The notes under the pieces: generated by a model
Seen by the model: the letters and a program-made list of their open reading frames with translations, nothing else
What the model was told of the DNA's origin: nothing
The model's database searches: none
Part shown: positions 8,418 to 40,400 of the stretch, one piece after another
How positions within the stretch are numbered: position 1 is the first letter of the stretch
How the letters are laid out: each line of letters opens with the position of its first letter
Translations under genes and position numbers: made by a program
From: Dioscorea cayenensis subsp. rotundata
Lineage: Eukaryota > Streptophyta > Magnoliopsida > Dioscoreales > Dioscoreaceae
Assembly (NCBI RefSeq): GCF_009730915.1
Contig: NC_052489.1
Span: 29,505,916-29,569,915, forward strand
Direction of reading: 5' to 3'
Length of the DNA: 64,000 nt

Positions 8418-8435
8418 ATAGCATTACTCATTTAC

Positions 8436-8443
8436 ACAAAATG
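8436..8443. repeat. Target-site duplication of inner MULE, left copy
   Basis: ACAAAATG directly precedes the GGGGTTAAAT terminus. The same eight bases (nine if one G/C of the terminus is shifted) directly follow the right terminus at 15464-15471. Mutator-like elements typically make 8-11 bp duplications, usually 9. Confidence 0.85.
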
Positions 8444-8705
8444 GGGGTTAAATTTTCAGGAGGTCACCCAACTTTACTTGGTTTTCAATTCGGTCACCCA
8501 AGTTCAAAACGCATAAAAACGATCACCCAACTATGATTTCTTTTCACCGGCCAACATCCCGACCAATTCCAGCCCTCATAAACCCACGCGGCAGCCGGAA
8601 CGGCCTCGCTGCCAGGGTTGTGCCGACTCGTAATCCCGATGTGGCATGTCCACGCCCTGCTTTTGTGATCCCCGCCGCCAGAGAACCGCCACATCATCTT
8701 CACCT
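8444..8705 (+). repeat. Left terminal inverted repeat of inner MULE
   Basis: Pairs with 15200-15463 in inverted orientation at high identity with a few small indels. The match runs from the outermost GGGG through the region ACATCATCTTCACCT. Short open frames on both strands here are by-products of its relatively GC-rich composition. Confidence 0.85.
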
Positions 8706-9084
8706 CAAAAAGGGGAAAGTAGACCGTTGAGAAGACATTGAGCTTTTTCCTTCTCACCTTCTTTCTCATTTTCACCAAAGCAAAGGCTTTGTGGTGACTG
8801 GTCGAGAGCAAAGGATCGAGAACCTTACCATCGGTGAGGTAGCAAGGCAAGCAAGAAAGACTTCAACGCAGAATGGCGGTGAATCGGGAGGTCCGTCCCA
8901 AGCAGCGACGGTCCACCGTAGTATTGTAAGCTCCATGAAACCCTAATGCCCTTATTGCATTATATGTTTACTTTATAGGTTGTAGTGTCTATTTGAAGCA
9001 AAATAAGGTTATGGTTTACAAGTGAAAGTCAGTGGTATGTGTTCACAATGCCGAGGGTCCACCAGTAGTACATTAATTTTTTTC

Positions 9085-9480
9085 TTTTTTTGTTGTTGTG
9101 GTCCCTAGCTAGTAGTTGCATAAGTTTTGTTATTGAGTGGGTGTTTTGGGTTTTTTTTTTCCTTGGATGTCTTGGGTTTTTATGTTGAATGTGGTCCCTA
9201 CTGTTAGTTGTAGAAGTGTTGTCATAAATGGGTTTTTTTGGGTTTTTGTTTTTACTCGTATGTACTAAATTTTGTGTTGAATGTGGTCTCTAGTCGTTGA
9301 ATATAGAAGTATTGTCGTTAAGTGGGTTTTTATAATCTGGATGTCCCTAAATTTTTGTCGTTGAATGTGGCCCTAGCCATTAGTTGTAGAAGTGTTGCTA
9401 TGAAGTGGATTTTTTTGGTTTTTTTTTATATTAGATGTCCTTGCTTTTTATGTTGAATGTGGTTCCCAGCTTGATGGCCA
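9085..9480 (+). repeat. Minisatellite of about 90 bp units, roughly five copies
   Basis: Imperfect tandem units carry the core TTGAATGTGGTCCCTAG, then GTTAGTTGTAGAAGTGTTG, then a T/G-rich stretch. Units start near 9095, 9188, 9280, 9362 and 9453. The block sits between the left TIR and the transposase, as is common in autonomous MULEs. Confidence 0.7.
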
Positions 9481-9964
9481 ATTTTTAGTCCTGCTTTTTT
9501 TAATGTGATGTTATTTGATCTCAAACAGCTTGTAGAATTTTTTTGTCAAATAGGGTTTTTTTGTTTGGTTTATACTATGGATGTGCTTTCCATCAACACA
9601 ATTCATGTGGTGCTATGTTCCCCGGTTTGAGTTAAAATTTTTCGGAATGTGCTTTCCTTGCCACAAATTCCATATTTCTAAATAAGGGTGTGGTAGAATT
9701 GGGTAAATTTAATTATGGTTTGTTAATTTCCCTCAACACAATTACATTGGAAAGCTGGTTTGTGTTATTTGCCTCCATATAACTTTATTTTGGTTTGTGT
9801 TATTTTCCTTGACACAATTTTTTTGATATAAACTTGTAAAGAATTGGTTCAAAGGACTTGTCATTACCTATGTGATGGTTGCATTATGTAGTGATATGTA
9901 CATTGTTATAAACAGCAGATCAAAAACAATGAATTAATCGTGTATATTTTCTTTTTTTATTTCA

Positions 9965-12900
9965 GCATCTACAACCTGAGTTGTTTAGTATAAGGATGCA
10001 CTACATGGTTGGGGGTATAGAGGGATTGGTCGGGTTTGTAGACTTTTTGTCGTGGAGATCAAATATCTAGGGCTCGGAGTTGCTAGCTATGGCCGTGGGA
10101 GTTTCAATTAGATGTTGAAGGGTGCACTGTATGGTGGCTGGATGTAGGCAGTGAAAACAGGGGTTTAAGGGAGATATGCACTGACATGGATGCACTAGCC
10201 ATGGCTATGGCAGTAGGTAGTAACAGGGAGGTTCAGGTTTGTGTAAAGCTTGCAAGAAGTGGACAATCAATTTTAGAAGAAGTGGAAGGAGGATCTAGTG
10301 AAGAAGATAGAGACTTGGAGGAGGAATTAATTAAAGGAGATGGTAAGAATAAGGATGTTGAGGAAGATGACTTTCATGATTCTGATTACAGTTTTAGTGA
10401 TGTTTCTGAGCAAGAAGTAGGGGCTACTAGCCATAAACACAGGACCATGGTGATTACTCATGGAGAACCTCCAAATCTAGCAGGTGAAGATGATGTTGAC
10501 TCAAACTATGCAGGGTAGTGAAGAGTTAAATTCAGCGTCATCAATGTATGAAGAGGAGATAATTAGTAAGAAGCCCAAATATTCAGAATTTAATGAAGAG
10601 GTTGATATGAACAATCCTCAATTTAGAATTGGAATGAAATTTAGGAGTTTTAAACAATTCAAGGATGCAGTGAAGGCTTATGGGATTAAGAACAGATATG
10701 TAATGAATTTTAGACCTAATTCCCAAAAAAGGTGCAAAGCCTTTTGCAAGAAAGGATGCCCTTTTTACCTATGGGCATCACCTATGGTCAAAGATGGCAG
10801 CACAGTGCAGATTAAGGCAGGGAAATTAGAGCATGAATGTGCACGAGATCACAGTAATAGGCATGTAAATGCAGAGTGGATAGCCAAAGCCTATCTTGAG
10901 CAATTTCGAGCAGATCCTTCATGGAAATTAGCTGGGATTGTCCAGGCTGTGAAAATTAACCAAGAAGTGGATATCAGTAGGTTGAAAGCATACAGGGCCA
11001 AGTGCCTTGCACTCAGGTAAATTTAATGCTTAAGTCTTATTTAATTTATAGTTTGCTATCTCTTATCTGTAAGTTAATTTATTTGCTTCAATTTTTTTTC
11101 CTACATTCAAACTAGGATCATAGATGGTGATGAAAAAACTCAGCTCGAAAGACTTTATGACTACAGATTGGAGCTATTGAGGACTCACCCGGGTTCATGC
11201 ATTAAATTCAGGTGTAACCAAGGTGTTTTTGAGTGCATGTATGTTTGTCTAACACCTTTGAGAGAGGGTTTCTTAGCAGGATGTAGACAAATTCTATCAC
11301 TCGGATGGATGTTTTTTTTAAAAAAGCCTATATGGGGGGGGCGCTTGTTAGTAAATGTAGGGATAGATGCAAATGATCGCATCTATCCCTGCTGTATGGG
11401 CTACATGAAGCAAAGAGAATAAGGAGAATTGGAAGTGGTTCTTGGAGCTACTGGCAGAAGACTTGAAGATCACAGATAGCTATCAATGGGCATTTATGAG
11501 TGATAGACAGAAGGTAATTTTCTTCTCATCTTTATTAGCATGAGTGGACTCTAGAATTGGTTTGCTTTACATGTTTCTATACTGCTTGATATATGTATAA
11601 TCTGTGCTTTTTTTTTATATGTTTCTATACTGCTTGATGTATTTCCTAATATGTCCTGTTAATTTCCTAATATGTCCTGACATTTTATTTCGCTTGTTTC
11701 TATAATGGAATTGGTTCTATACAACTAATATGTCATGTTAAGTTTCTATACTGCTTGATATATGTATAATAAATTTGCCATGCTTAACTAATAAGTTCTC
11801 CAAATTTGTGGTTTTTTTTTATATGTTTCTATACTGCTTGATGTATTTCCTAATATGTCCTGTTAATTTCCTAATATGTCCTGACATTTTATTTCCCTTG
11901 TTTCTATAATGGAATTGGTTCTATACAACTAATATGTCCTGTTAAGTTTCTATACTGCTTGATATATTTCATAACATATATGATTGCTTCTTTGGTTATA
12001 TACTGACATTTGCTTGCCCTTGTTTCTTTTCTTTGTTTTGAACTGTGGTGGTTGTGTGTATATTAAATTTACAAACTTAGGGTTTAATACCTGCATTAGA
12101 AGAGTTGTTTCCTCACAGTGAACATAGGTATTGTGTTAGGCATATCCACACTAATTTCAAAAAAAATTATAGAGGGAAAGCACTAAAAGATCAATTGTGG
12201 AATTGTGCCAAATCTACATACCTACCTGCCTATGAAAGAGCAATGGACATGTTGAATGTGATGTCCGCAGGTGCCCATGAGTACATGAAGAAGATAGACC
12301 CACACCACTGGAGTAGGGCCTACTTCCAAACTAGATTCAAGTGTGATATATTGCTTAATAACCTTTGTGAGTGCTTCAATAGCCACATCCTTGAAGCTAG
12401 GATAAAAGGCATTGTAACAATGAATGAGATGATCAGGACAAAGTTGATGGTTAGGATTCGAAGAGAAGGGATGCCATGAAAAAAATGCACCACGTTCAAC
12501 GCCCTAGGATACTTAAAAAAAGTCGGAAAAAAACAAGCAACTTAGTTGGTTATACAATTCAATTTGGTCCGGTGGTGATCGAGTATCAAGTGGTTGGGCC
12601 TCGATGGCCAATTTGTGATTAACAAAAAAATGAGGGTACTTGCACATGAGGAAATGGCAACCGACAGAATTCCCTGCAGTCATGCCATTTCAGTCATTTA
12701 CCACAATAAAGACAAGCCAGAAAATTTTTTAGATGATTGCTACAAAATCAGTACCTTCTTGGAGACATATAGACACACATTAAACCCCACACAAGACAGG
12801 GACTCATGGCCTAAAAGTCAACAAGGGCCCATGATTCCACCTGAGCCAATCACCAGGAGAAAGGGTAGGAAGACACTGCTCAGGAGAAGGGAAATTGGTG

Positions 12901-13637
12901 AGGATGAAAGAGGCTTTACAAATGGCAGAGTCAAGAAGACAGGGGTCACCATGAAGTGTAGTATATGTGGTGCTCCAGGCCACAATAAAAGGCACCATCA
13001 ACGACCACAGGTAATTGTTTTGTATTAAGTGTTATATTTTAAATTTGATGCTTGTGTCCTTATGGATTGACTGTTTATAATAGGGTGAACCCTCAAGTGA
13101 AGCAGGACAACATAACCCAATGGATGACATTGATCCACATATCCTGGAGGAGCATTTTGCACTGGTAGGGACAAATTTTTCTGCTTATTTTTGTATTAGT
13201 CTAGTTTCATATTTGAATTTCATTATTAACTCTTCTTGAAATTAGGTTGATGCTATGTATGGACCCAGCCAGTCAGCAGCTACAACACAGACACAACCCA
13301 GTGTAGACCCTTCTTCACAGGTAAAATTAAATTATAGCTTTTTAATATAACTATATATATATATTGGTAAATCATTGTCTGAACCTTGGGTTACTTGTTC
13401 TGTCAATGACAGGTGATCAATCCACCTCAACAGGGTTTCCCTACAACACAAACTGGTACTCAATCTGGGATGAAGATGCACAAATTGCCTGCATGGGGAG
13501 GTAAGGGTTTTGATGCTGCCACAAATATTGCCAAGACTCAATATAAAGATAAAGGCACTGATCGCAGAAGTAAAGAAGGAACTCTTACAAGAAGGAAAAA
13601 GGCATGGGTACCCCCAGGAACATCTAGTGGACATTGA
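9965..13637 (+). pseudogene. MuDR-type MULE transposase (degenerate)
   Basis: Encodes a DDE transposase with an acidic N-terminal region (10186-10518), a MuDR N-terminal domain (10520-11020, FRIGMKFRSFKQFKDAV and KKGCPFYLWAS), a MULE catalytic domain (11116-11515 then 12080-12480), a SWIM zinc finger (near 12650-12700, IPCSHAI) and a CCHC knuckle (12956-12995, CSICGAPGHNKR). The C-terminal exons end at TGA 13637. Catalytic residues seen are MSDRQKGL for the second Asp and NNLCECFN for the Glu. The first Asp motif (DGCF) is present in sequence but displaced by an extra G near 11303. Other one-base shifts lie near 10515 and around 12475-12600, and the first 220 bases (9965-10185) are shifted too. 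No longer able to give one protein. Confidence 0.85.
11609..11970 (+). repeat. Direct repeat inside a transposase intron
   Basis: A segment of about 155 bases starting TTTTTATATGTTTCTATACTG (11609 region) is repeated near 11813-11970. It has internal short repeats of CCTAATATGTCCTG and TTTCTATACTGCTTGAT. Lies in the intron between the two halves of the catalytic domain. Confidence 0.75.
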
Positions 13638-13729
13638 AATTAGTGTTCTGCAAATTTTTTTTTTTTTATCTGTAAGGGCATGTACCTTTGACTCTTGTGA
13701 CAGAAATTAAGTTCAATTACCTGTTTCAG

Positions 13730-14700
13730 TGACATCTTCAGTTAATCTAAAGTGAATTTTTTGTTTCAGTGTCTTATTTTGTAAATCTGCAGATTTGAAT
13801 TTTGTAAATCTTATTTTGTAAATCTGCAGCTTGTTGTAGTTTGCAGCGTACTGGAGTAAGTGTTTTATTTTGTAAATCTGCAGATCTGAATGTGTGTGAC
13901 TATTTACACTCAAAGCTTTTCTTGGTTTCAATATTTTTTTTTAGGATTGAATGTCTGCAGATCTGAATTTGTGTGAGAAATTGAATTCATTGCTTTTTTT
14001 GGTTTCTGTATTTTTTTTCCTGAGCTGAATACCTGCAGATCTGAATTTGTGTGAGAAATTGAATTCATTGCTTTTTTTGGTTTCTGTATTTTCTTTTCTG
14101 AGCTGAATACCTGCAGAGCTGAATTTGTGTGAGAAATTGAATTCATTGGTTTTTGGTTTCGTATTTTTCTTTTTAAAGTGAATACTGCAGATGAATTTGT
14201 GTGAGAAATTGAATTCATTGGTTTTTTTGGTTTCTGTATTTTTTTTTTCTGAGCTGAATACCTGCATATCTGAATTTGTTTGACCAATTAAGCCCAAGCC
14301 TTTTCTTGGTTTTAGTATTTTTTTCTGAACTAAATGTCTGCAGATCTGAAGTTGTGTGACAAGGTGATGCATTGTTTTTTTCAGTATTCTTTCTGAACTG
14401 ATTACCTGCAAATCTGGATTTGTGTGACCATTTAAACTTAAGCCAATACTTTTTCCTCCTAAACTGAATGTCTGCATATCTGAATTTGTGTGACAAGTTG
14501 ATGCATTGCTTTTTTTTGTTTCAGTATTATTTCTGAACTGAATACCTGCATATCTGGTTTTGTGTGACCATTAAAACTTTCTCCTGAACTAAATGTCTGC
14601 AGATCTTAATTTGTGTGACATTTAAACTCAAGCCTTTTTTTGGTTTTAGTATTCTTTTTTTCTTAACTGAATGTCTGCATATTTGAATTTGTGATCTAAG
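13730..14700 (+). repeat. Subterminal minisatellite of about 75-80 bp units
   Basis: About a dozen imperfect units share CTGCAGATCTGAATTTGTGT, then GA(G/C) with AAATTGAATTCATTG or a TTAAACTCAAGC variant, then a T-rich tract and a TGAACTGAAT core. The stretch between transposase and right TIR holds no gene. Long minus-strand frames across it are repeat artefacts. Confidence 0.8.
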
Positions 14701-15199
14701 CTTTTGACCATTTAAACTTCTTTTTAGAAGCGTGAATTGTCAACATTTGTTTTACTTGTCCACTTCAACTCGAGTGTCTCAGTACATTTTATTATTGTTT
14801 ATAGCTTATGTTCACACAAAAAGTCAAAACAAATTAAGCTAACAAATTATATCCAATGAATTTATGATCAAAAAGAAATTATCAATATTTGAATTTCTTT
14901 TGACTTACCAAAGATCTGGGAAAAACCAAAAATCCAATAAAACATACAAACTTCAATGTAATCAAGGGAAACAGTGTCCCCATTCATCAACACAACTATA
15001 ACAAAACTTCAATTTGAAAGTAAACCCTAACTGAAGCTTTTGACTGAAGCTCTTTCCTTTCCTTCACACTCGCATGATGCATCTGCCATTTACTTTCCTT
15101 CCTGCATGGACGACAGAGCTTCCATCTCCTTCCCTTCCTCTCTCTCTCAAACATTCGGTTCTTTGTGACGAAGGATGAAAGATGAAGATGAAGACGAGG

Positions 15200-15463
15200 A
15201 TGAAGGTGAAGATGATGTGGCCGGTTGCTGCTGACGGGGATCACAAAACAGACGTGGACATGCCACATCAGGATTCTGAGTCAGCACAACCCTGCTGACA
15301 GAGCCGTTCCGGCTGCCGCGTGGGTTTATGAGGGCTGGAATTGGTCGGGTGACTGACCGGTGAAAGGAAATCATAGTTGGGTGATCGTTTTTATGCGTTT
15401 TGAACTTGGGTGACCGAATTGAAAACCAAGTAAAGTTGGGTGACCTCCTGAAAATTTAACCCC
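15200..15463 (-). repeat. Right terminal inverted repeat of inner MULE
   Basis: Reverse complement of 8444-8705. The terminus AATTTTAACCCC-like end abuts the target-site duplication copy at 15464-15471. The inner side runs into a GA-rich stretch (15170-15215). Confidence 0.85.
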
Positions 15464-15715
15464 ACAAAATGGCCACACTACTCACGTGGCCCATTTTCAT
15501 CTTTCCTACTCAACACTCTAATATATTGAAGAAAAATATTATGCATTAATTCATCTTTCTTTTCTCTGCTTCATCACCGATCCTCATCTTCGCACCATCA
15601 TCGAACCCGTCACCGGTCACCCGCCCATCACCTGATCCTCATTTTTGCACCATCATCAAACCAGTCACCGGTCACCCGTCTGTCACCCCAATCCTCATCT
15701 TCGCACCATCATTGA
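15464..15715 (+). repeat. Left TIR of outer MULE, part inboard of the insertion
   Basis: Continues the outer TIR begun at 8418-8443. Matches the reverse complement of about 21560-21790, including two to three blocks of a roughly 60-base subrepeat with TCCTCATCTTCGCACCATCA and GTCACCGGTCACCCG. The first eight bases are the right copy of the inner element's target-site duplication. Confidence 0.8.
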
Positions 15716-15959
15716 ACTTTTTATTTAACCTTTCACGCAGGCCTTGCCTCTTCTTCTTCTTCGAAGAAGGAAACGATCTTCGTTTTCTTCTTTGACGATT
15801 CTAGGGTTCCTAGTCGTCATCTTGGTTTCGATTTGGATCTTGATTCTTGGATTCCTCTCATGCTGGTTCTCTTGAATCTTTGAGGTATTCTAGGGTTTTC
15901 ATTTTGAGGTAACATGCTGCTGCTTCTACTCGGGTGTTCATTGATGAAGGAGTGGAGCA

Positions 15960-16074
15960 ATGACGAAGGAGAGGCGCGGGAGAACCCATTGCTATTTGAA
16001 CGTATGTGATTTAACACCGATTAATAACTACCTTTATTGGTCTGGCCTCGACATCTTCCACTCTGGGATCGAAG
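15960..16074 (+). pseudogene. Captured fragment of a deSI-like (PPPDE) peptidase gene, first exon
   Basis: Frame from ATG 15960 reads MTKERRGRTHCYLNV, then DLTPINNYLYW and GLDIFHSGIE, up to a GT splice donor (GAAG/GTGAAC) at 16074. DLTPIN..YW.GL.IFHSGIE is the hallmark start of plant PPPDE/deSI proteins, with the catalytic His in FHSG. The sequence upstream (15780-15959) resembles a 5' leader with CTAGGGTT motifs. No second exon was found. It lies between the outer MULE's left TIR and its transposase, so it looks like a transposon-captured piece. Confidence 0.75.
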
Positions 16075-16903
16075 GTGAACTTTTTTGGCTTCTATTAAAT
16101 ATATTTATTTTTCTTTGATTTTTTATTGTGAGATCTGAACTGAATTTTAGGCTAGTGTTGCTTGTTTCTTTGCATCTTGATACTTTTCTTTGTGCGATTT
16201 TATTTGAGATGTTGAAATTGTTTGGATTCTTGATGGTATTTGCTTTGTGTGAAGTTGTTGTGAAGGACTTTTAGGTTTATTTGAGATTAATCTCTGGCTT
16301 TGCAGATATCAAGTCATTCTCATGTATCTGTAGTTTCTTTTATAGGTTGGAATGCAAGAGAAAACAATTTGTATGTATGGAACTGTTGCTAGGGCTTTTG
16401 TACTTGTTAAAGCATGGTAGACAACATTTTTCTAAGGATTAAGATTTTATTCTGGCACTGGGCGCCTAATCTTTAAACCTTTGATATATGCATGAGTACA
16501 AATAAAATGAAAGAAAGAGCAATCATTTCTCACTATAGAAAACAATTCCTTGCAGCCTGAATTGTGATATGCTTTCTTTGAGGAAAAAGATACAATTTAA
16601 TGTGGTTTTATATATTTTTTTGTGGAGCAATCACAATAGTATCACCTAATATTCTGCTTATATAAAATGTATTATTTTGCTTCTTATTTTTTCATCAATT
16701 CAGGTTATGTTGAGCCCTTACCAGTTGATTTTGAGTAGCTTGACAAATTCTACCAATTGATTGCAACAACTAAGTTAACTGTATATATTCAATATTTTAC
16801 CTTAGAAGGACTTTTACCAACTCTATTATACATTCACAATTTCTTTTATCGAACCATACAAAATTTCATGTTTGTGTGTATCTTCTTGAGTTTATTCAAT
16901 CAG

Positions 16904-17302
16904 GCACTATCTAAGCGAATCCATTACTGCAAATTTGTCACAGAGGCGAAATTCCGTGAAAATCCTTCAGCCTATGAAACTGCCATCAAATCTCAAGTAT
17001 CATCCCAAACTTATACATTTCATCAGTTATTTCTGCAAATCTCTACTAATAATCTGAACTTTACTTTTCGAAAATTGCTTTATATAGGATCTTGGCTTGC
17101 TTATGAAGATGTAAACATATGAATAAGTGGTAAACCACAATCAAAACAGCGGGTAGAAACCAAGGCTAAAGTCTTCAGCCAGGAAGTCGTGATGACTTAG
17201 AACGGGAACTGCGTGCCACCGATTTACAAAATCGAACTTGACATCATTGTCGAGCTCTACGGTGTCTGGATAATGCCATTAACCAAGCAAGTTCAAGTAC
17301 AG
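16904..17302 (+). pseudogene. Captured fragment of chorismate mutase, two exons with intron
   Basis: After an AG acceptor, 16904-16999 reads ALSKRIHYCKFVTEAKF then RENPSAYETAIKSQ, followed by a GT donor. From about 17137 comes KQRVETKAKVFSQEV, then (after a stop) PPIYKIELDIIVELYG and WIMPLTKQVQVQ. These match the C-terminal half of plant chorismate mutases (LSKRIHYGKFVAEAKF, YKI...VVELY..W.MPLTKEVQVEYLLRRLD). The intron is kept, so the piece was copied from genomic DNA rather than mRNA. In-frame stops show it is not functional. Confidence 0.8.
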
Positions 17303-17742
17303 TAACTACTGAGGAGGTTTGGACTGAGAAAATCACAGCCTGCTAGCACACACATGCCTGTAAAAGCATAAAACTGAAGTTGGTTGTTAAAATGCTTGTA
17401 GCAGAAACATTGAGATTAGAAAGAGAATTGAACTCTGCATTGAAGGATGAGAGATGCAAAATTTGAGAACATGACTCATAGAATATAAATATGCTTGAAA
17501 CTATGAAGAAAAGTGTTTTTCATTTCATATAAACATTGTCTTCCACATAAGGCAATATTTTTAAATTGATAATCAGAATACTTGCAAGTATGTAATAGAG
17601 AAGACTTATTTTATTAATTTATGAACACTAGTAAGCAACAACATAGGCTTACACATCATTATAAAAAACAAAGTATGCCACCTGTAAACAATTTTTTATC
17701 AAAATTCTTGAAGGAAAATTCATTAGAAACAAAATTGAAGGA

Positions 17743-17853
17743 AAGATCACTGTCTTCTGTTATCACAACATCAACACCAACTTCATCAGCATCAAGAGTA
17801 GACAGATAAGCTAACTGAGCATCAGCTTCATAACGAGTAACAACAAACTCAAC
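17743..17853 (-). pseudogene. Captured fragment of EXO1 (XPG-I nuclease region)
   Basis: The minus strand reads VEFVVTRYEADAQLAYLS, then TLDADEVGVDVVITEDSDL. This is the XPG-I motif of plant exonuclease 1 (usual form VEF.VAPYEADAQLAYL..LD.D..G..AVITEDSDL). Ala-Pro before Tyr is replaced by Thr-Arg. Sequence on either side does not continue the EXO1 protein. The metal-binding EADAQ and EDSD residues are kept, but the piece is only about 37 codons. Third host-gene fragment in this element. Confidence 0.75.
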
Positions 17854-17874
17854 ATTAGAAGGCATATTACCACC

Positions 17875-18260
17875 ATCGAAACATAAATATGCACAATTCA
17901 AAACATCAACAACACACTTTAAATTAGCAACTGCACACTTCAAAACATAAATAAGCACAATTTAAAACATCAACTGCACATTTTAAATCAGCAATTGCAC
18001 ACTTCAAAACATCATATGCACATTTTAACTAAGGCATACAAAACCATACAACACAAAGATGTATGATAACATTATCAGCACACTTTAAGTTAACAAAACA
18101 TACAACTACATAAAACTCATCCATTAAGGTTGACAAAACCATACAACACCTACAAAAAGTCATCCATTAAGTTTGACAAAACCATACAACACCTACATAG
18201 AACTCATCCATTAAGGTTGACAAAACATTGAATTCATCCATTAAATATAGAACACATTGT
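17875..18260. repeat. AC-rich minisatellite blocks in outer MULE
   Basis: From 17890 to 18030, units of about 40 bases carry CAATTCAAAACATCAAC or CACTTCAAAACAT. From 18060 to 18260, units carry CATCCATTAAGGTTGACAAA then ACCATACAACACCTAC. Both lie downstream of the minus-strand transposase. Confidence 0.7.
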
Positions 18261-18445
18261 TGAGCTCTGGTCACATTGGGTCTGTATTCCTCTATTAATA
18301 AATTCATAACAATTAAACAATAAACATGATTAAGAAAATTTATGTTATAGTTAAATAAATCAAGAAAAGAATAATTGGAATACCATAAAGAAGACATTGG
18401 ATTCTTGTGTGAATGACTGAATGTCCCGGATTTAGCGAAATGAAG

Positions 18446-20963
18446 CTATCGAAAGTTGAAACAGAGTTTGAATTTACCTAAACGAGAAAAGTATACTCTA
18501 ATATGTTTAAAAAAATATATATAAAACATAATACCAAATATAAATTTCAAATATGTAGTGGTAACCGTGCTTTCTTGTGTATAAATTTCGGCTTGTTTGT
18601 CATGTTGAGTTTGAGTTTTTTTCCTTTGATTGAGCCTTCTAAAAGAATTAATAGTAATGTTAAGGAAAATAATAATTGTGATATTAATTTTTTTTTTATA
18701 AAATATAACTACCTTTTTCTTATTTCTAATGATCATTTCTTCTATTTTAGACTTCTTCCTCTTTGATGGTGGTAGGCCTTTGCTCCGTACTTTTAGAGGA
18801 CTTTGAGATTTTACACTTGAACTTGTGCTTCGGCTTTGCTCACTATCTTCTTCTAAAAACATTGGATGTAGAACTTCATTAGAATGACTCCCATAATAAT
18901 ATGCATTGTCCATCAACTTTTCTATTGCTTCATCCACGTATTTCATCATAAAATTATATCTCTCCACAAAGGCGACCCCAATTTCAACAGCTTTAGAAAA
19001 ATGAGAACATAATTTATTGTATCGCACATTTTCCTCACTAGTTTGTGGGGCATCATAGCAATTCACCACACATGTATGCCTTCGTTTTATATCCATTCTC
19101 CACCGGGGTAAGGTATATCAGTATGGGATTTTTTTTCACATTCTTCTCAATCAAAACCTTGCAAATGTGTCTGCAAAGATTCCTCTAAACTCAAATAAAT
19201 TACATGAGCATTTAATATCAAGTTCGGCTTCATTGTGATGCATATTGAATACCACTTGCCTTCTGACTTTAATTTCTTCTTTTCCCCTGAAAATGTTTGT
19301 CACTTAGAATGTACATATTTGCCCATTTAATCTGATAAGTGTAAGATTACAATACAACATTCCCCACAACTCATCTTGAAACAACTTAAAGATTTCATTT
19401 GTATAGGCTTCTTGTAGTTGCTTCTCAAAATAACAATCAGTTAGCATTAGAAAAGTTGAGTTAAAAGATCCCAAATCATCCTTCCTTTCCTTTTCAATCT
19501 TACTTTTCAACACGTTATCATATTGCTCCACAAATTATTTCAATGATGTTGTTGGACCAACACCCATAAAAAAAAACATTAATGCTTTCACTTCTTTGAG
19601 TTGTGGACATCCCCACCCAAAAAATATCTCTCACATATAGGGGAGCCCATCGATGCCGAATTTTATACAAAGAATTCATACATTCATTTTTTTCAACATT
19701 ATAGTCCTTTACCATCATCAACCAAATGTCTTCAAATCCTTAAATATCAACTGCTTCGTAAATGATACTTTTCAAAATTTTCTTTATTTCTTTATATTCA
19801 GTCAGTCCACCAAGCTTCTCAGGAACCTTCTTCATAATGTTAAAAAGACAGAGACAATGATGAGAATTTGGAAAGACCACTTTAATAGCTCCTTGGATGG
19901 CCATGCATTGATATGTAATGATGGCTTTGGGGGCTTTACCCGACATGCATTCTAGCCAAGTTTTGAACAACCATATGTAAGTTTCAATATCTTTATTTGA
20001 TAATAAACCGTATCCAAACAAGATCGTTTGCCCGTGGTGATTTACACCAACAAATGGAGCAAAAGGCATATCATACTTATTCGTTAAGTATGTTGTGTCA
20101 AAGGAGATAACATCGCCGAAGGCTTCATAAGCCGCTCTGGACCTTGCATTTGCCCAAAAAACGTTTCTTAAACGGCCTCCCTCATCCATATCAATGAGAT
20201 GAAAAAAATTAGAATTTCTCTGGTGCATGCGCAAGAAATAATTTGCATTGCCTCAGCATCCCCAACTCCTAGTTTGAACTGCCTTGCTTTTACAATGTAG
20301 TTCTGACAATCGTTCTCGGTGTATGTAAGATTTTCATATCCCCCACATTCAACAACTAAAGAATGAAAATTTTTGCTTAAAGTTATGCCTACTGGATCAT
20401 TTACTTCAAGCCTTATTTAACATTTTGCATCTAATTTTTTATTGCACTTTTGGAAATGAGATTTATGTGGACTCAATGCATGATTATGCTCCAAAATAGC
20501 ACTAGAAATAGTAAAGCATCCATCATTGCCAACAATCACGTTAATCTTGGCTTGACAATTTGTTTTGGTGGATAACCTTATATTGAAAGAATTTTTTTGT
20601 TGTTGATATCCTTTTCTCACTTTTTACACATGCAAGTGTGTAATATTTCAATTTTCCATCATCACCCAACCTTGTACGATTTTTTGTAATACCAAACCGT
20701 TCATGCCGAGCATACTTAATATAGAAATTGTAAACTTCTTCTTTAGAATTAAGCACCATACCGGCTGTTGACACAATCTTCTTAGGCAATGAATCCTCTG
20801 GGTGTGTTAATTGATCTTTCTCTTTGTTCAATATTTTTGCACCAAAAGATCCAGCCATGGTCTCGTTCATGGCCAGTTCAGAATAACCAACTTCTAAATC
20901 TTCCATATTTTCCTTGTTGGAATCTATAATGATAGATAAATACAAGTGAACAAGTGAGTGCAA
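18446..20963 (-). pseudogene. FAR1/FHY3-type MULE transposase (degenerate)
   Basis: Domains on the minus strand from 20963 down: FAR1 DNA-binding domain (AGMVLNSKEEVYNFYIKYAR, TRLGDDGKLKYYTLAC, then ILEHNHALSP), MULE catalytic domain (19740-20234; SFDTTYLTNKYDMPFAPFVG, GKAPKAIITYQCMAIQG), YVRDIFWVGMSTTQRSES (near 19600), and a SWIM-type finger (CSCNLFEFRG near 19190). The C-terminal region (18640-19096) ends in a Lys-rich tract. Frames change several times (near 20417-20640, 19740, 19530, 19150). In the catalytic core the second Asp, normally ITDQ, is Tyr (ITYQ). It is therefore dead both by frame and by active site. It could be called a FAR1-related host gene, but flanking TIRs argue for a transposon. 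Confidence 0.85.
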
Positions 20964-21318
20964 ACAAAACTTTCACACACAAAATTCAGCAATGGCTATA
21001 ATCATTGAGGGAAAACATTACAATTAAGTGTCTGCTTAAAAAACAAAAAATAAAGTTCTAATGAAATGAAAATCATAGTGAAGCATATCAAATATATTTG
21101 GAACAGGGAATAAGACTATTTCATTAAATCAAATTTTTTTAACAGAAACCATTAAATACTAAAAGAAGTTAGAATTAAACACATAATCAAACATTCAGGA
21201 GCTCAACCAATGGTCGCTTTAAATTCACAGTTGAAGCCATCAAAAGAAATCTTACCAAAAAGAAGGGATTCAACTCATGTGAGCATTAAAACATTCCAAA
21301 TTAAAAAAAAAAAAGAAA

Positions 21319-21559: not shown

Positions 21560-21810
21560 GAGCGACAAGTGACAGGCAGGTGACCGGCGATGGGTTCGAT
21601 GATGGTGCGAAGATGAGGATCGGGGTGACGGGCGCGTGACCGGCGACAGGTTCGATGATGGTGCGAAGATGAGGATTGGTGGTGAAGTAGAGAAGAGGAA
21701 GAGGAATTAATGCCTAATGTTTTTCTTCAATGTATTAGAGTGCTGAGTAGGAGAGATGAAAGTGGGTCACGTGAGTAGTGTGACCATTTCGTGTAAATGA
21801 CTAGTGCTAT
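21560..21810 (-). repeat. Right terminal inverted repeat of outer MULE
   Basis: Reverse complement of 8418-8443 joined to 15464-15715, with scattered substitutions (about one in ten). Outermost bases on the plus strand are GTGTAAATGACTAGTGCTAT. The following ATAACATTA differs by one base from ATAGCATTA at the left end, but the positions do not fit a simple duplication. Confidence 0.75.
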
Positions 21811-22689
21811 ATAACATTACTCTATTCGAAATTACGGACGATTTATCTTTAAAATATTATAATTTTTGAAATTATTTATGAGAATGCGTATTTGGTGCAT
21901 TTTGTCTGAAAAGACAGGCTACTACTTGATAGAAAACTGCAAACAGTTTACCTTATTTAAATGATAAACTGTAAGACTAAAAATGATAAATAAATCAATG
22001 TTTTCCATGTTATGCATTACACTTCACCCATAAATATATTATTGTTTAATTACCATATTGGTCCCTCTATTATAGTGAAAGTACCATTTTAATCCCTCTA
22101 ATATTTTTTTGTCCTCAAGAGGTCCCTCTATTGTTCATTTTGAGAAAAACCAGTCCCTCACCTTGACACCCGTTCTATTTTCCGTCTTCCCATCTGAAGT
22201 GGCATGGAATGTGATTAAAATATTAATAAAATATTGCAAAAAATTCTATAAAAATCCATTAGTCAGCTAACAACTTAATTACGTTATCAGGTTCAGATCT
22301 TAAATAACTAAGGATCCGAACCTAAAAACTAAACCATTCTCCATCTCCTCTAATCCATTCTCCCCCTCTCCACTCCATGATAACAACAAGGTTGAACAAC
22401 GCTGCAACCATTCTCCATCTCCTCTAATCATTTCTCCCACTCTCCACCGCATCTAACACCTCCGGACGAAGAATTCTTACAACCAGGAGTGAACGAGGTC
22501 GTTCTCAACGCCACCATCGCCATCGACAACATTGTCCTCTTGCCATCCACCATGACATTTGGCGCCTAACAACAACAACAATAACCATAGAACACTTGAT
22601 TTTGGTGTATAATTTTACAAAGGTAACAACTATTATTCAAAACTGTAATTCACCATAAAACTATAATTTTACTGTTTCACAAGAGCCGG

Positions 22690-24370
22690 TTACACAGGAC
22701 CCATCAAGGAAGGCAGGAATAGAACATGTGTCAAGATAAACCACCTGTCAAATTTAAGGATTACATATTATAGTGAAATGCAGTATAATGATGGTTGTTT
22801 GGGATTACATATTAATGTAATTAGGAGTAGAATATTCGGAATGGTCGTGGTTACATTGTTAGCTGTCCTGGCATAGCAGGTGCTTGTTGAAATGCCAAAG
22901 TGGCAAAGTTTGTTAGTATTGTAATGATTCCTATTAAGTCTGATGATGTGGATTGACATTATATGACAAGCCAAGTGGTGTCATGGCAAGAGGATGATGA
23001 CGTGGCATGTGGTGACTCATCAAAGGAAAAGATGACTAGGATGATGATGTGGCAAAGGATGTTATCATGAATATCAAGGTAGAGATTTAATGGAGATCAA
23101 GGTGGAGATTTGATTAAGATCTAGATTTAATAGATATTTCTCTCAATACAATCATGTGATGATAAACTATTTTTGGAAAGTGCATCAAGACTATAGGATC
23201 TTTTCTAGAAAGGCAAGTTTTATTTTAGATATGATTATCTATCCTTGGTAAGATCCGGGATGATAATTCATATCTTTGATAGAGCTCCTTTTTAGAAAGA
23301 TCTATTTGAAGAGAGAGAAATATTCTATTATTGGCAAGTGTTCAAGATCATGAAGATTATTTGAAGCTATTTGAAGACACAAAGATTTAGTTTGGTGTGA
23401 AGCTATTTAAAGACACAAACTAAATAAGGTAAAGATATACCAAGGAGATCATCAAGACCATATTTAGCATTACTATATTGAAGGAAGATTCAAGAGTTAT
23501 CTATGGGCGGAACTATTCATGGAGACCAGTCATATGAGGAGATTGATTGAAGATTGCATAAGATATGATTAGAGATTTGAAGATCCAAGCATGGATGATT
23601 AAAGATCATGCTTAAAGATATTGAAGGCTAAACTTGGATGAAGACAAGATCAAGTTTAGTAACAATATTTCCATGAGTCAAACAAAGATCATTTGGAAGA
23701 CCAAACTTGGGCCAAGTTTGGAAAAGAAGATCGGGAGATCTTCGGTGGCTATCTTCGGTAGGATGGTCACGTGTGCCTTGGTGGGCACGCCCCTCAGGAG
23801 AGGAAGACCTTCTGAAGTGATGTGAGGAAGGAAGCAGCTGCAAGCAGGAGGAGCTCGGGTCTAGTCAACTGCTACGAGGCGGACTGAAGGAACCAGGAGG
23901 TTGAAGGTCGCAGATTCGGGTGCATCCGCTAGAACTCGATCATGTTCGATGAGGTGGGCCATGTTGCATCGGGTATTGCAACATCTAACTTTGGAAGGTG
24001 TCCAAGTTAGGAAGTCGCGGAGAATTCTAAAAAGAGGTAACTTTGTAGACGCGTCGGTGCCTCATATAAGACATCCCGCTCCAAAAATTTAGGGATGGAG
24101 CCAACAAGTGAGAGACTCTTCGGGTGAGAGTTGAGTGTGTGACCGTCGGGCAATCTTGAGAGGATATTCTTTGTATTGAGAGAGTGAGTGAGTGTTGTAC
24201 TCCTTGTTCTTATACCTATTTCAGTGGATTGTTTCTCCGGGCCTGGCCCCCCAGATATAGGCAAGGTTGTGGCGAACTGGGTTACCAATTTGCTTGTCTC
24301 CTTTATCTTGCTTTGATTGTGTGTGAGTGTTTAATCCTTGAGTGAGTTTTTGAGTGAACTTAACACATCA
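22690..24370 (+). mobile_element. Probable solo LTR of a Copia element (SIRE/Maximus-like)
   Basis: A fossil of about 1.6 kb with no coding domain. Its right third has U5-like features known from SIRE-type LTRs: a TATA-like TCATATAAGACA near 24062, short GAGTGA/GAGAGA repeats near 24110-24195, and a block CTCCGGGCCTGGCCCC with GGTTGTGGCGAACTGGGTT near 24234-24285. It lies within the long-TIR element. The exact ends and the flanking duplication were not resolved, so the coordinates are approximate. It could be a different repeat class. Confidence 0.5.
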
Positions 24371-24544
24371 CACCCCCACCGGAACCATCAATTCCATATA
24401 AACAAATGAATGACGAATGGAGAAAGGCATCTTTGGCCGTAAATATATTTTTTTTCTCCTTCTATCTCTCTCGTCTTCTTCCTTTCTTCTCTCCTCTTCC
24501 TTTTTCCTTAGCCTTTCCCTGAAATTCCTCCAGGATTATCCAAT

Positions 24545-24830
24545 TCAGTGCTATAATTTTACCATAGCATACATCCCGAAATTTCGGTGTATAATTTTAG
24601 ACATCCTGGCAACATCCACCACAATTATTTTTCAAAACTCTTTCTCAAAAAACTGTAATATCTGCTCAATATACAAAGGCAACAATTAGTATTCAAAACT
24701 GTAATTCACCACAAAACTATAATTTAACCATAGTATACATCCCAAAATTTCGGTGTTTAATTTTAGACATCTTGATAACATCCACCACAATTATTCTTCA
24801 AAACTTTTTCACAAAAAACTGTAATATCTG
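24545..24830 (+). repeat. Direct repeat of about 160 bp inside the long-TIR element
   Basis: Two tandem units carry ACTATAATTTWACCATAG, CATACATCCC.AAATTTCGG and CATCCACCACAATTATT, at about 24547-24680 and 24712-24830. A third partial match lies at 22600-22680 on the other side of the LTR. Confidence 0.7.
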
Positions 24831-25320
24831 ACGTGGTGATGGTTGCATTGAGAACGACCTCGTTCATTTTTTGTTGTAAGAATTCTTCGTCGGGAGACGT
24901 TGGATACGGGGGAGAGGGGGAGAGAATTAGAGGAGATGAAGAATGGTTGCAGTGTTGTTTGACCTTGTTATCATCATGGAGTGGAGAGGGGGAGAAGGGA
25001 TTAGAGGAGATGGAGAATGGTTTAGTTTTCGGGTTCGGATCCTTAGTTATTTAAGATCCGAGCCCGATAATGTAATTAAGTTGTTAGTTGACTAATGGGT
25101 TTTTAATAAAATTTTTTACAATAATTTATTAATATTCTAATTATATTTCATGCCACATTAGATGGGAAGATGGAAAATAGAATGGGTGTCAGTGTGAGAG
25201 ACTGATTTTACCCAAAATGAATAATAGAGGAACCTCCTAAAGACAAAATATTAAAGGGATTGAAAAAGACACTTTCACTATAATAGAGGACCAATCTGAT
25301 AATTAAAGCTTGTTTTTTCA

Positions 25321-33564: not shown

Positions 33565-34361
33565 ATACTAATGTGCTGTCATCCCAGAATTTCTCATTTT
33601 TGGTGTTGCTATCAAGAAAAACCCTTTAGTTTCCCTAAGTCATGGATTGTCAATCCTAAGGTTCTATTTGAGCTAGCTATCCACATGTAACTTGAACTTC
33701 TTCAGTAATTGGATGTGAGACTTAGCAGAGTTATATTTTTTCGGATGGAGTTCAGATATTTATGTTTGAATGGTTAAAGAGATTTCTTGCAGGTCTTTTA
33801 TATCTTCCATCTTGTTTATTGTTTCAGAGAAACAGCATTCTCGTGCTTAGTCTTCACGGCGTGAAATACATAATATTTTATTTTCGCTATTTATATGTAT
33901 TAATGTTTTATGCAAAATCTTCAAGAACAATGTCTGAATCTGTTTCTTCTGATGTGCTGTTCCGAGACATGTTAACCCCTTTTTTTCTTGTCTTTTAAGA
34001 TCATTGAAGTAAACAAATAAACATAAAAAAAATAAAAATAGCCAACAAAGCGGCATATTTTGTTTAAAAAAATTGCAATATCAAGCATTCAAGCCCCAAA
34101 CACCGCAGAGTGAACCGTAACACTTTCTTGTCATGGTTTTGAGCTTTTTATCAATATTTGCAGTTTTTCTAATCGAAGTTGGTTTGCTCACCTTTTTTTT
34201 TTAAATACAATATTGCAAAAATGTTGATTTCATCCAGATGAATATATATATATATATATATTATATAATTTGAAATTAAAAGTAATTAAAAAAAGCCTTC
34301 TAATCCCCATTTCCCACGCACAGTGTGAGAGGGCGCGAGACAGATCAGTGTTTCATCGGCG
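33565..34361. other. Noncoding spacer between DAD1 and the first quinone oxidoreductase
   Basis: 3' UTR of DAD1, then AT-rich sequence with a (TA)n run at about 34246-34262. The last 150 bases resemble the sequence before the second quinone oxidoreductase copy. Confidence 0.6.
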
Positions 34362-37300
34362 ATGAAGGCGATCGTGATAACGAGCCCCGGCGGGCCGGAG
34401 GTCCTCCAGCTCCAGGACGTCGAGGATCCCTCCATCAAAGACGACGAGGTTCTCATCCAGGTCGCCGCCACTGCTCTCAACGGCGCAGACCTCAGCCAGC
34501 GAATGGGCTCCTACTCTCCTCCCAAGGGCGCCAGCCCATACCTCGGTCTTGAGTGTTCCGGCACCATCCTTGCCGTCGGCTCGTCCGTCCACCGATGGAA
34601 ACCTGGCGATCAGGCACGCCGATCTCGACTAGGGTTTCTTTTGTGAATTTGTTCTGAAGGAGCTGGTTTTCTGTTTTTTGTTTTTTTTTTTTTTTTTGTT
34701 TTTTTGTTTTTTTTTTGTTTTTGGTTTGGTTGTAGGTTTGCGCTCTTCTTAGTGGAGGTGGGTATGCTGAGAAGGTGGCCGTCCCGGTAGGTCAGGTGCT
34801 ACCCGTGCCTGAAGGCGTCTCTTTGAGGGATGCCGGGGCCTTGCCAGAAGTAGTGTGCACCGTCTGGTCGACGGTGTTCATGATGAGCCACTTGTCACCA
34901 GGGGAGTCTTTTCTGGTATATGTTACCTATTTCCTGGACTTTTGAGAATCCTTTGATGCATGCTTAGGGGTTAGAATTGGTGTCTTTTGTAATAATTTTT
35001 TATTGTTGATCTTTTATAGTGAATTCAATGTGCTGTTGTGGTGTTGATTCGTCATCTTTTCCTTTTATATGGTTTTCGATTTTGTAATGGTTGGGAAATG
35101 CTGAAACTTTACTAGAATTGCATGATTGGATGTGCATTGGTGTTTTAGAATTCTTTTAATCAAAATACTTAATCGCGTTTGTACTTTCCTATTAAATCCT
35201 TTTAATCCCATTGCTCGTATATGAAGGAGAGTACAAGTTTTGCGAGGTTTCCTCAAGTGTTGTTTGAAGGAGAGACCCTAATTCCATTTTTATGGTTAAG
35301 CAAGCCATGCTGCTTAATCAAGGGAGTAGGTGGCAGTGTAATTGTAACATCAGGGTTGTGTTTCTTATTTGTGGGACGAAACAACATGAATTTTGTAATG
35401 TAGATTTAGTTGACATGTTAATGATGGAAGCTTTAATTTGGAAGATGAGTTTTGTTATAAATGTTGGCTTACACAGTATTAATGCTTTAAAAAAATCTTA
35501 TAGAACCAATTTCAAGAACAGTAAAGGGAATGCTTAATTGCAAGTGGTGTTGGTACTGGTATTTTCGGTTGTGGTTGTTGCAAATGGTATTGGTAGCCTA
35601 CAAGCTCCTGTCTTTATGGTCATCTTGTTTCTTGTAAAACTAGACGATTTTTGTAATTAGAGAATAAGGAGAGCCATGTTGACAACAAGAAAAATGACTT
35701 GCCTCGTCAGTATGCTTATTCCCTCATTGAGGTTAAATTTATTTGGATAAGGATGTTGATAAGTTCTTGACTGAATTCCTATACTGAGCCAGAATTTGTT
35801 GTCAGATTCATGGAGGATCAAGTGGAATTGGTACATTTGCTATCCAGATTGCAAAGCACCTTGGAGTGAGGGTATTTGTTACCGCAGGTCAGAGGTTCTG
35901 GGAGTAAATGTTATTTATTGTCTTCAAATATGTAGCAGATATTGATAAATTCAACCTTAATATGTTCTAAACAAATCCAAATATCAGGAAATGAAGAGAA
36001 ACTTGCTGCCTGCAAGAATCTTGGTGCTGATGTATGCATCAATTATAAGACTGAAGATTTTGTTGCTCGAATAAAGGAAGAAACAGGAGGGAAAGGTGGG
36101 TCTATGCTAATGATGCTATCATCTCAACTTGCTTCTGTTTGGTATAATATAAGTATTTGGTGTTTTGATGCAGGTGTTGATGTTATATTAGACAATGTTG
36201 GTGGCCCTTACTTACAAAGAAATCTTGAAAGCTTAAACATTGGTGGAAGGCTTTTCCTCATTGGTTTCCTAGGAGGTGCAGTGACAGAAGTTAACCTTGC
36301 ACCTCTGCTAATAAAGCGTCTTACAGTGCAAGGTAATAGATTTTCTCTCTTTTGGTGTTGGGGTTGAAGAAAATACCATCCAACTTGTTGTCCTACTTAC
36401 AGTTTTGATCTTGTGGTGTAATCTAACTTAAATAGTTAAGTAAGTTGGGTTTCTGAACAAGGTGGCCATTCTTGATTTTTTATTGGCGCTTGTGATTCAT
36501 GTTCATTTGCCCCATGATTGAAAGTTTGAAACCACAATGATTTCTGGGAAATTGAAGTCTTAGCGTCATATATTCTGCATTGTTTGTTTAAGTGTTATTG
36601 TGTTAATGAAATTGGAAAGAAGGGAAGAAACTTGCTAGGATCATATACATGGAGTTACATACAGCATACACCATTGAGCATTTGGAATTTAATGCATGTT
36701 TTTTGCTGCTCCATTTCACTTCTATGAAAAGATGGACACTGAGCATAGTATTGTAAACTGCTGAGATGGTGATGATTCACAAACCACATCCTGTAAATTT
36801 GGGGATAGCCTTTAGAGGACGTTTCAATAACATTGGTTGTTATACATTGACATAGAGATTTGTGTATCACTCATTTGTTCTTAATCTTCAGTTTAGTCTC
36901 AAATCCAGTTCTTTTTGTGCAGCTGCTGGGTTGCGGAGTAGGAGCCCCGAAAACAAGGTGGAAATAGTGAAGGAGGTGGAGAAGCATGTCTGGCCAGCAA
37001 TAGCTGCCAGCAAAGTGAAGCCTGTGATCTATAAGTCTCTACCATTATCTGAAGCAGCAGAGGGTCACAGGCTTATGGAAAGCAGCATTCACATTGGCAA
37101 GATAATTCTTATCCCCTGATTTGCAAAACAAAGCTAGTACTGTATCTGTTTGGCAGAGTGCTTGTGCGAGTGTTGTGTATAGTGTATATCCATTTAACAA
37201 TTTGATGATCCTCATTTGGTGGTGTGCCTGGATGTTTATAGACAACCAGATCAATGCCTTGAGTATTTTCCTATAAAATGATGATTGTTGTTGTTTGCTC

Positions 37301-37450
37301 ACATTCATCTTCAAGCTGTTATAGTCATGGATGAGTTTTACACAAATTTTTAAGACATTCTTCTTTTCATACAGTATATATTTTTTACTAATTAAACATC
37401 AGAAAAACAGTTTTGTTGTTTTATTTTTCTTTCTTTTTGTTTTTACTCAA
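34190..37450 (+). repeat. Tandem duplication unit 1 (PIG3-like gene and flanks)
   Basis: About 3.26 kb repeated head to tail as 37451-40705. Similarity covers the promoter TA tract, all exons, introns and the 3' flank to the T-rich end (GTTTTTACTCAAG). Exons are nearly identical and introns differ by small indels, so the duplication is recent. Confidence 0.9.
34362..37119 (+). CDS. PIG3-like NADPH:quinone oxidoreductase, intact copy
   Basis: A zinc-less medium-chain dehydrogenase/reductase that reduces quinones with NADPH; cytosolic by family. Exons 34362-34613, 34736-34915, 35806-35887, 35988-36095, 36174-36332, 36923-37119 give 325 residues, the family length. The N-terminal GroES-like part holds LQLQDVEDPS and GLECSGTILAVG. 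The Rossmann motif HGGSSGIGTFA starts at residue 146. Further blocks are VTAGNEEKLAACKNLGADV, DVILDNVGGPYL and EAAEGHRLMESS.HIGKI. The first intron starts with GC rather than GT (GATCAG/GCACGC), a known rarer donor type, and this is kept in the duplicate. The start is supported by a GC-rich first exon directly after the leader. No break is seen. Confidence 0.92.
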
Positions 37451-40400
37451 GTAACAATATTGCAAAAACGTTGATTTCATCTAGATGAATATGTATATAT
37501 ATATATATATTATATAATTTGAATTTAAAAGTAATAAAAAAAGGGCCTTTTAACCCCCATTTTCAACGCACAGTCACAGTGTGAGAGCGCGCGAGAGATA
37601 TCAGCGTTTCATCGGCGATGAAGGCGATCGTGATAACGAGCCCCGGCGGGCCGGAGGTCCTCCAGCTTCAGGACGTCGAGGATCCCTCCATCAGAGACGA
37701 CGAGGTTCTCATCCAGGTCGCCGCCACCGCTCTCAACCGCGCGGACGTCAGCCAGCGAATGGGCTCCTACCCTCCTCCCAAGGGCGCCAGCCCATACCCC
37801 GGTCTTGAGTGTTCCGGCACCATCCTTGCCGTCGGCTCTTCAGTTCACCGATGGAAGCCTGGCGATCAGGCACGTCGATCTTGACGAAACACACACTAGG
37901 GTTTCTTGTGTATTTGTTCTAAAGGAGCTGTTTTTTTAGGTTTGTGCTCTTCTTAGTGGAGGTGGGTATGCTGAGAAGGTGGCCGTCCCTGAAGGTCAGG
38001 TGCTTCCCGTGCCTGAAGGCGTCTCTTTGAGGGATGCCGGGAACCTTGCCAGAAGTAGTGTGCACCGTCTGGTCGACGGTGTTCATGATGAGCCGCTTGT
38101 CACCAGGGGAGTCTTTTCTGGTATATGTTACCTATTTCCTGGACTTTTGAGAATTCTTTGATACATGCTTAAGGGTTAGTATCGGTGTCTTTTGTAATCA
38201 TTTCTTATTGTTGATTTATTAGTGAATTCAGTGAGCTGTTGTGGTGTTGATTCGTAGTCTTTTCCTTTTATATGGTTCTCCATTTTGTGATGGTTGGAAA
38301 ATGCTGAAACTTTACTAGAATCGCATGATTGGATGTGCGTTGTTGTTTTAGAATTCTTTTAATCAAAATGCTTATTTGTGTTTGTACTTTCTTATTAAAT
38401 CCTTTCAATCCCATTGCTCGTATATGAAGGAGAGTACAAGTTTTGCGAGGTTTTCTCAGTGTTGTTTGAAGGAGAGATCCTAACTCCATATTCGTTGTCA
38501 AGCAAGCTATGCTGCTTAATTAAGGGAGTAGGTGGCAGTGTAATTGTAACATCAGGGTTGTGTTTCTTATATGTGGAATGAAACAACACGAATTTTGGAA
38601 TTGAGATTCAGTTGACATGTTAATGATGAAAGCTTTGATTTGGAAGATTAGTTTTGTTATAAATGTTGGCTTACACAGTATTAATGCTTTAAAAAAAATC
38701 TTAGAGAACCAATTTCAAGAAAAGTAAAGGGAATGCTTTATAGCAAATGGTATTGGTATTGGTGTTTTTGGTTGTGGTTGTCGTAAATGTTATTGGTTGC
38801 CTACAAGCTCCTGTCTTTACAGTCATCTTGTTTCTTGTAAAACTAAAAGATTGCCACAGTCATCTTGTTTCTTGCAAAACTAAAAGATTGCCTTATTTAG
38901 AGAATAAGGAGAGCCATGTTGACCACTAGAAAAATGACTTGCCTGGTAAATATGCTTATCCAATATCCCCTCATTGAGGTTAAATTTATTTGGATAAGGA
39001 TGTTGATAAGTTATTGACTGAATTCCTATACTGAGCCATAATTTGTTGTCAGATTCATGGGGGATCAAGTGGAATTGGTACGTTTGCTATCCAGATTGCA
39101 AAGCACCTTGGAGTGAGGGTATTTGTTACTGCAGGTCAGAGGTTCTGGGAGTAAATGTTATTTATTGTCTTCAAATCTGTAGCAGATATTGATAAATTCA
39201 ACCTTAATATGTTCTAAACAAATCCAAATATCAGGAAATGAAGAGAAACTTGCTGCCTGCAAGAATCTTGGTGCTGATGTATGTATCAATTATAAGACTG
39301 AAGATTTTGTTGCCCGAATAAAGGAAGAAACAGGAGGGAAAGGTGGGTCTACACTGATGATGCTATCATCTCAACTTGCTTCTGTTTGGCATAATATAAG
39401 TTTTGGTGTTTCGATGCAGGTGTTGATGTTATATTAGACAATGTTGGTGGCCCTTACTTACAAAGAAATCTTGACAGCTTAAACATTGGTGGAAGGCTTT
39501 TCCTCATTGGTTTCCTAGGAGGTGCAGTAACAAATGTTAACCTTGCACCTCTGCTTATAAAGCGTCTTACAGTGCAAGGTAATAGACTTTCTCTCTTTTG
39601 GTGTTGGGGTTGAAGAAGATACCATCCAACTTGTTGTCCTACTTGGTCTTGTGTAATCTAACTTAAATAGTTAAGTATGTTGGGTTTCTGAACAAAGAGG
39701 CCATTCTTGATTGTTTATATGCGCATGTGATTCAAGTTCATTTGCCCCATGATTGAAAATTTGAAACCCCAATGATTTCTGGGAAATTGAAGTCGCAGCG
39801 TCATATATTCTGCATTGTTTGTTTAAGTTTTATTGTGTTAATGAAATTGGAAAGAAGGGAAGAAACTAGCTAGAATCATATACATCAAGATCCATGCTGC
39901 ATGCAGCATGCACCATTGAGCATTTGAGCATACACCATTGAGCATTTGGAATTTAATGCATGTTTTTCGCTGCTCCATTTCACTTCTATGAAAACACACT
40001 GAGCATAGTATTGCAAGCTGTTGAGATGGTGATGGTTCACAAACCATATCATGTAAATTTGGGGATATCCTTTAGAGGAGGTTTCAATAACATAGGTTGC
40101 TATGCATTGACATAGAGATTTGTGTATCACTCATTTGTTCTTAATCTTCAGTTTAGTCTCAAATCCAGTTCTTTTTGTGCAGCTGCTGGGCTGCGGAGTA
40201 GAAGCCCCGAAAACAAGGCGGAAATCGTGAAGGAGGTGGAGAAGCATGTCTGGCCAGCAATAGCTGCCGGCAAAGTGAAGCCTGTGATCTATAAGTCTCT
40301 ACCATTATCTGAAGCAGCAGAGGGTCACAGGCTTATGGAAAGCAGCATTCACATCGGCAAGATACTTCTTATCTCCTGAATTGCAAAATAAAGCTAGTAT

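Follow-up and report, generated by a model that had tools for sequence, protein, structure and literature searches.

Results

A single TIR pair bounds a degenerate FAR1-type MULE

Within the window (the whole 64-kb stretch of DNA analysed), one pair of TIRs bounds a FAR1-type MULE together with pieces of host genes and a transposase, as a sequence-only reading of the locus had proposed. The termini of this outer element lie at about 8418 and 21810. TIR-type MULEs usually carry TIRs of 100-500 bp and are flanked by a TSD of 8-11 bp. Here the left TIR, on the plus strand, is severed by a nested element into an outer tip (8418-8444) and the remainder (15473-15717), while the right TIR occupies 21569-21810 on the minus strand. 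When the left TIR was joined across the nested element and aligned, as far as 15686, with the reverse complement of the right TIR, 211 of 242 positions were identical (K2P divergence 0.140). Tandem repeats of about 55 bp lie inside both TIRs, three on the left and two, of about 56 bp, on the right; repeated motifs inside MULE TIRs are described in PMC3310237. A 25-base pattern taken from the TIR had no match in viral contigs.

No clean TSD was found at the ends of the outer MULE. The nearest approach to one is a pair of 11-mers that differ at a single position (TAGCATTACTC/TAACATTACTC), and to accept it would offset the two ends by about 13 bp. This ambiguity could be read to mean that the locus is not one unit and that the TIRs of two related elements flank host pseudogene fragments and a transposase by chance. 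Such a coincidence appears highly improbable: the TIRs are opposite in orientation, alike to the extent given above and furnished with common internal repeats, and the transposase between them is of FAR1 type.

The degenerate transposase lies on the minus strand at 18750-20972, the outer limits being approximate. Its MULE domain (PF10551, E=7.1e-33) falls at about 19827-20111. The FAR1 domain (PF03101, E=2.1e-6, 28.8 bits against a cut-off of 28.1) is partial and adjoins a frame change; Pfam confirmation covers the FAR1 and MULE stretches only. This FAR1 DNA-binding domain would fit membership of the FAR1/Jittery clade. By hand count over three frames, the gene has three in-frame stops and five frame changes, some of which may be unrecognised introns. 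A stretch that we take to be the second catalytic aspartate motif, ITDQ, reads ITYQ. It is very unlikely that the outer MULE, judged from its coding sequence, is still autonomous. A search of viral contigs with the transposase ORF matched a pattern in six stretches, none of them relatives.

The nested element is a MuDR-like MULE on the plus strand (8445-15463) that interrupts the outer MULE's left TIR. It is flanked by a perfect 9-bp TSD, ACAAAATGG, with copies at 8436-8444 and 15464-15472. Its TIRs are 90.5% identical over 262 columns, and Pfam finds a MuDR-type DNA-binding domain (DBD_Tnp_Mut, 3.8e-8) and a partial MULE domain under the cut-off (E=0.0044). The nested MULE is younger than the outer one: TIR divergence (K2P 0.086 vs 0.140) agrees with the nesting order, within the limit set on such dating by the fact that a MULE's two TIRs may already differ at insertion. 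An array of tandem repeats of about 78 bp occupies 13839-14660 within this element.

Pieces of three unrelated host genes lie between the left TIR and the transposase

The three unrelated gene pieces named by the sequence-only reading were all recovered where it had placed them, between the left TIR and the transposase. The chorismate mutase (CM) piece, on the plus strand, comprises two exons and their intron, again as proposed. The penultimate exon (ALSKRIHY...IKSQ, 16904-16996) follows an AG acceptor. It is separated by a retained 91-bp GT...AG intron (16997-17087), where homology breaks, from a degenerate last exon (17088-17327), which ends with a TGA (17325-17327) at the expected position of the C terminus. 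The borders of homology coincide with an AG before 16904, a GT at 16997 and an AG before 17088. We joined the two exons by hand into a 104-residue query, writing X for stops and for the frame change, and compared it with PDB sequences. The best matches were 6hjw (E=1.6e-27) and 4ppu, "Chorismate mutase 1, chloroplastic" (4.3e-22), and 9 of the 10 sequences at E<=1 were chorismate mutases. On the ORF of the first CM exon, Pfam CM_2 scored under its cut-off (E=0.036, 14.7 bits against 27). The homology thus makes the predicted chorismate mutase identity firm. The last exon carries four stops and two frame changes by hand count. Pack-MULEs keep the introns of the genes they capture. The CM intron retained here argues for capture at the DNA level, and the earlier argument from the intron is supported.

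The second piece is an EXO1-like XPG-I segment on the opposite strand (17743-17859, minus), with 39 codons without a stop and no frame change. Its assignment holds, as the XPG_I family exceeds its Pfam cut-off on the minus-strand ORF at 17659-17961 (E=2.5e-6, 28.2 bits against 24.9). All five PDB sequences at E<=1 were Exonuclease 1, the best with an E-value of 0.0043 over the whole sequence, or 0.04 when the aligned stretch is taken by itself. Together these matches provide good grounds for a predicted EXO1 identity. Tandem repeats of 64 bp and 43 bp fill 17876-18241, between this piece and the transposase, and the EXO1 reading frame continues into the first of them.

The third piece is a candidate first exon of a deSI/PPPDE (Peptidase_C97) gene, on the plus strand at 15960-16074. 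It runs from an ATG to a GT donor at 16075 and spans 38 codons plus one base, with no stops or frame changes. The sequence-only reading was right about its position, and PF05903 is the sole Pfam family at E<=1 for both the ORF and the exon. The match is weaker than that reading had implied, scoring 14.8 bits (E=0.026) on the 56-aa ORF and 15.5 bits (E=0.016) on the 38-aa exon against a curated cut-off of 29.2. The family had been named beforehand, which makes 0.016/24,736 models, or about 6e-7, the fairer figure. A putative close likeness of the exon to plant deSI proteins serves as a lead.

We considered whether one of the gene assignments, of which deSI is the most exposed, could be a chance match. 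Besides scoring under the cut-off, PF05903 dropped out of the listing when the deSI frame was scanned as 900 aa, and none of the seven PDB sequences at E<=10 was named deSI. Against chance stand the family's position as the only one at E<=1, its having been named in advance and an exon that runs from ATG to GT donor. A spurious assignment thus seems decidedly improbable, and deSI is the least firm of the three predicted identities, being in part inferred.

Several further searches concerned the deSI and EXO1 pieces. A pattern search of viral contigs with the deSI ORF brought out 16 stretches, none of them relatives. Three phage records matched the deSI piece at E of 3-4 and were not relatives, and PF05903 was absent from the one phage record scanned. 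Among 14 control genomes, PF05903 had a match in one, Methanocaldococcus jannaschii, under the cut-off. Four plant deSI and EXO1 peptide strings had no match in a literature text search.

A fusion of deSI exon 1 with the CM exon by splicing was rejected: the joined frame runs for 41 residues before it meets a stop. When 67 AG sites were tried as acceptors for deSI exon 1, three led into a CM piece, and none of these was the 16904 or 17088 boundary.

The interval with the gene pieces contains no evident nested TIR elements

Two AT-rich stretches, 16075-16903 and 17328-17742, separate the pieces and together make up about 1.2 kb. When the interval 15700-18401 was searched for a fourth gene in six read-through frames, Pfam returned CM_2 (0.14), XPG_I (1.7e-5) and Periphilin_C (0.071). 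We took Periphilin_C as a chance match; as a short ORF it reached 0.0024, under the cut-off. At 16704-16790, an acceptor-like site is followed by GYVEPLPVDFE, a stop and LDKFYQLIATTK, a possible fourth gene piece. The GYVEPLPVDFE stretch matched no Pfam family, either in its ORF or in the read-through frames, and the stretch after the stop had one PDB match (E 1.7).

In blastn, 15718-18450 had no match at E<=0.01 in the rest of the window. In tblastn, the four pieces were each found only at their own place in the window (next best E=0.058), and Rfam gave no match at gathering scores across the window.

Pieces that lie on both strands with AT-rich stretches between them might have arrived separately, by nested insertion of small Pack-MULEs, Helitrons or elements of that sort into the outer MULE after its death. 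A repeat search (find_repeats) listed four inverted pairs within 15718-18450, none of them longer than 20 nt or more than 81% complementary. A nested TIR pair is therefore not evident there, and small nested TIR elements are unsupported. The CM piece also has a higher density of lesions than the transposase (6 in about 335 nt vs 8 in about 2,150 nt; P=0.007, or P=0.052 once the lesion-free deSI and EXO1 pieces are added, from post hoc hand counts with approximate denominators). This excess speaks weakly against a late arrival and would equally be expected if the CM copy was broken before capture. Overall, separate insertions seem decidedly improbable.

Discussion

Probable gene capture by an old FAR1-type MULE

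The account that we favour is one of gene capture. An old FAR1-type MULE would have acquired DNA copies of deSI, chorismate mutase and EXO1 fragments in the interval from its left TIR to its transposase. The likeliest route would be gap filling, in which the template is switched while a break within the element is being repaired; a process of this kind is described for animals in PMC8277862. Decay would have followed, with stops and frame changes accumulating in the transposase and the left TIR receiving a second MULE. The gene sequence lies downstream of the transposase, a layout that PMC2528002 also gives for grapevine MULEs. Against the account weigh the outer TSD, which is not clean, the deSI score under the Pfam cut-off and the unassigned 1.2 kb or so between the pieces. 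Taken as a whole, capture by an old FAR1-type MULE, probably through gap filling, followed by decay and a nested insertion, is in our judgement highly probable. In which order the captures came, and whether the gene pieces ever travelled with the element, can only be inferred.

The gene pieces are most likely without function today. It is conceivable, at long odds, that they were carried while the transposase was active and that read-through gave rise to RNAs, antisense or small, that targeted the parental genes. EXO1 follows the direction of the transposase and deSI and CM oppose it, which is why read-through RNAs could be antisense to parental genes. If so, the element would have moved with its own set of regulators, directed at a peptidase, an enzyme of the aromatic pathway and a DNA-repair nuclease.

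Comparison with known captures

Host-gene fragments lie between the TIRs of the outer element (CM and EXO1 firmly, deSI weakly identified), as they do in Pack-MULEs of rice and other species (PMC4858842, PMC3903597). Pack-MULE fragments often derive from more than one parent, and Pack-MULEs by definition lack a transposase (both PMC4858842). The outer element differs in retaining transposase remains (MULE domain, E=7.1e-33). Because a transposase is present, it is strictly not a Pack-MULE but a transduplicating coding-MULE: transposase and host-gene fragments lie within one TIR pair, and the 91-bp GT-AG intron kept between the CM exons marks a DNA-level copy. Multi-locus Pack-MULEs were reportedly described by Jiang et al. 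in 2004.

The sequence-only reading had regarded the sharing of one element by a transposase and captured fragments as unusual. That combination had already been published, and the transposase here is broken. PMC2528002 reports genes captured beside mudrA or other MULE transposases in grapevine, Arabidopsis, melon and rice, and cites cases of capture in Arabidopsis, Lotus, melon and rice. The grapevine MULEs described there likewise hold captured host-gene sequence, which in the ULP cases lies downstream of the transposase in either orientation. The outer element differs from them in its three unrelated sources, in the single copy seen (within the window) and in its broken transposase. For the cellulose synthase family, the passage of PMC2528002 leaves transposase retention unstated. 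In the Arabidopsis KI-MULE (Kaonashi), as presented in PMC2528002 and PMC13317346, the latter a review of gene capture, a captured gene also stands beside mudrA in one MULE, in reverse orientation. That element is of the non-TIR type, encodes a 200-residue ULP protease domain and is present in high copy, whereas the fragments here are short and broken.

As a transduplicating coding-MULE, the outer element is ordinary: it is decayed, draws on three sources, and joins a transposase to captured host-gene sequence in a way already known. No MULE with a captured chorismate mutase was among the literature matches listed. Its interest is as a multi-source gene capture in a MULE that still holds transposase sequence. 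The surveys in PMC4858842 and PMC8903248 exclude transposase-bearing elements before counting captures, and the latter, on Pack-TYPE elements, classes any element matching a transposase as autonomous. Because such elements are set aside first, captures in transposase-bearing MULEs may be undercounted. Should captures prove common among coding-MULEs, loss of the transposase would not be a prerequisite for them.

Other features of the window

A third MULE-like element adjoins the outer MULE at 22045-25307, with inverted repeats of about 475 bp (K2P 0.1375); the six frames of 22200-25201 had no Pfam match at E<=0.5. Two duplications were also noted. A direct one at 241-2455, its copies about 1.52 kb apart, is 97-99% alike in the two longest listed blocks. 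A tandem one at 34319-40603, its copies about 3.2 kb apart, is 89-98% alike in the listed blocks, and its first copy carries an ORF for a zinc-binding dehydrogenase. Further Pfam domains in the window are Core-2/I-Branching enzyme, Pol polyprotein and gag pre-integrase. Together with SWIRM, amine oxidase and the plant-like chorismate mutase, these domains suggest a plant nuclear origin for the window. A gene at 42000-44693 has SWIRM and amine oxidase domains (Pfam) and is presumably LSD1-like.
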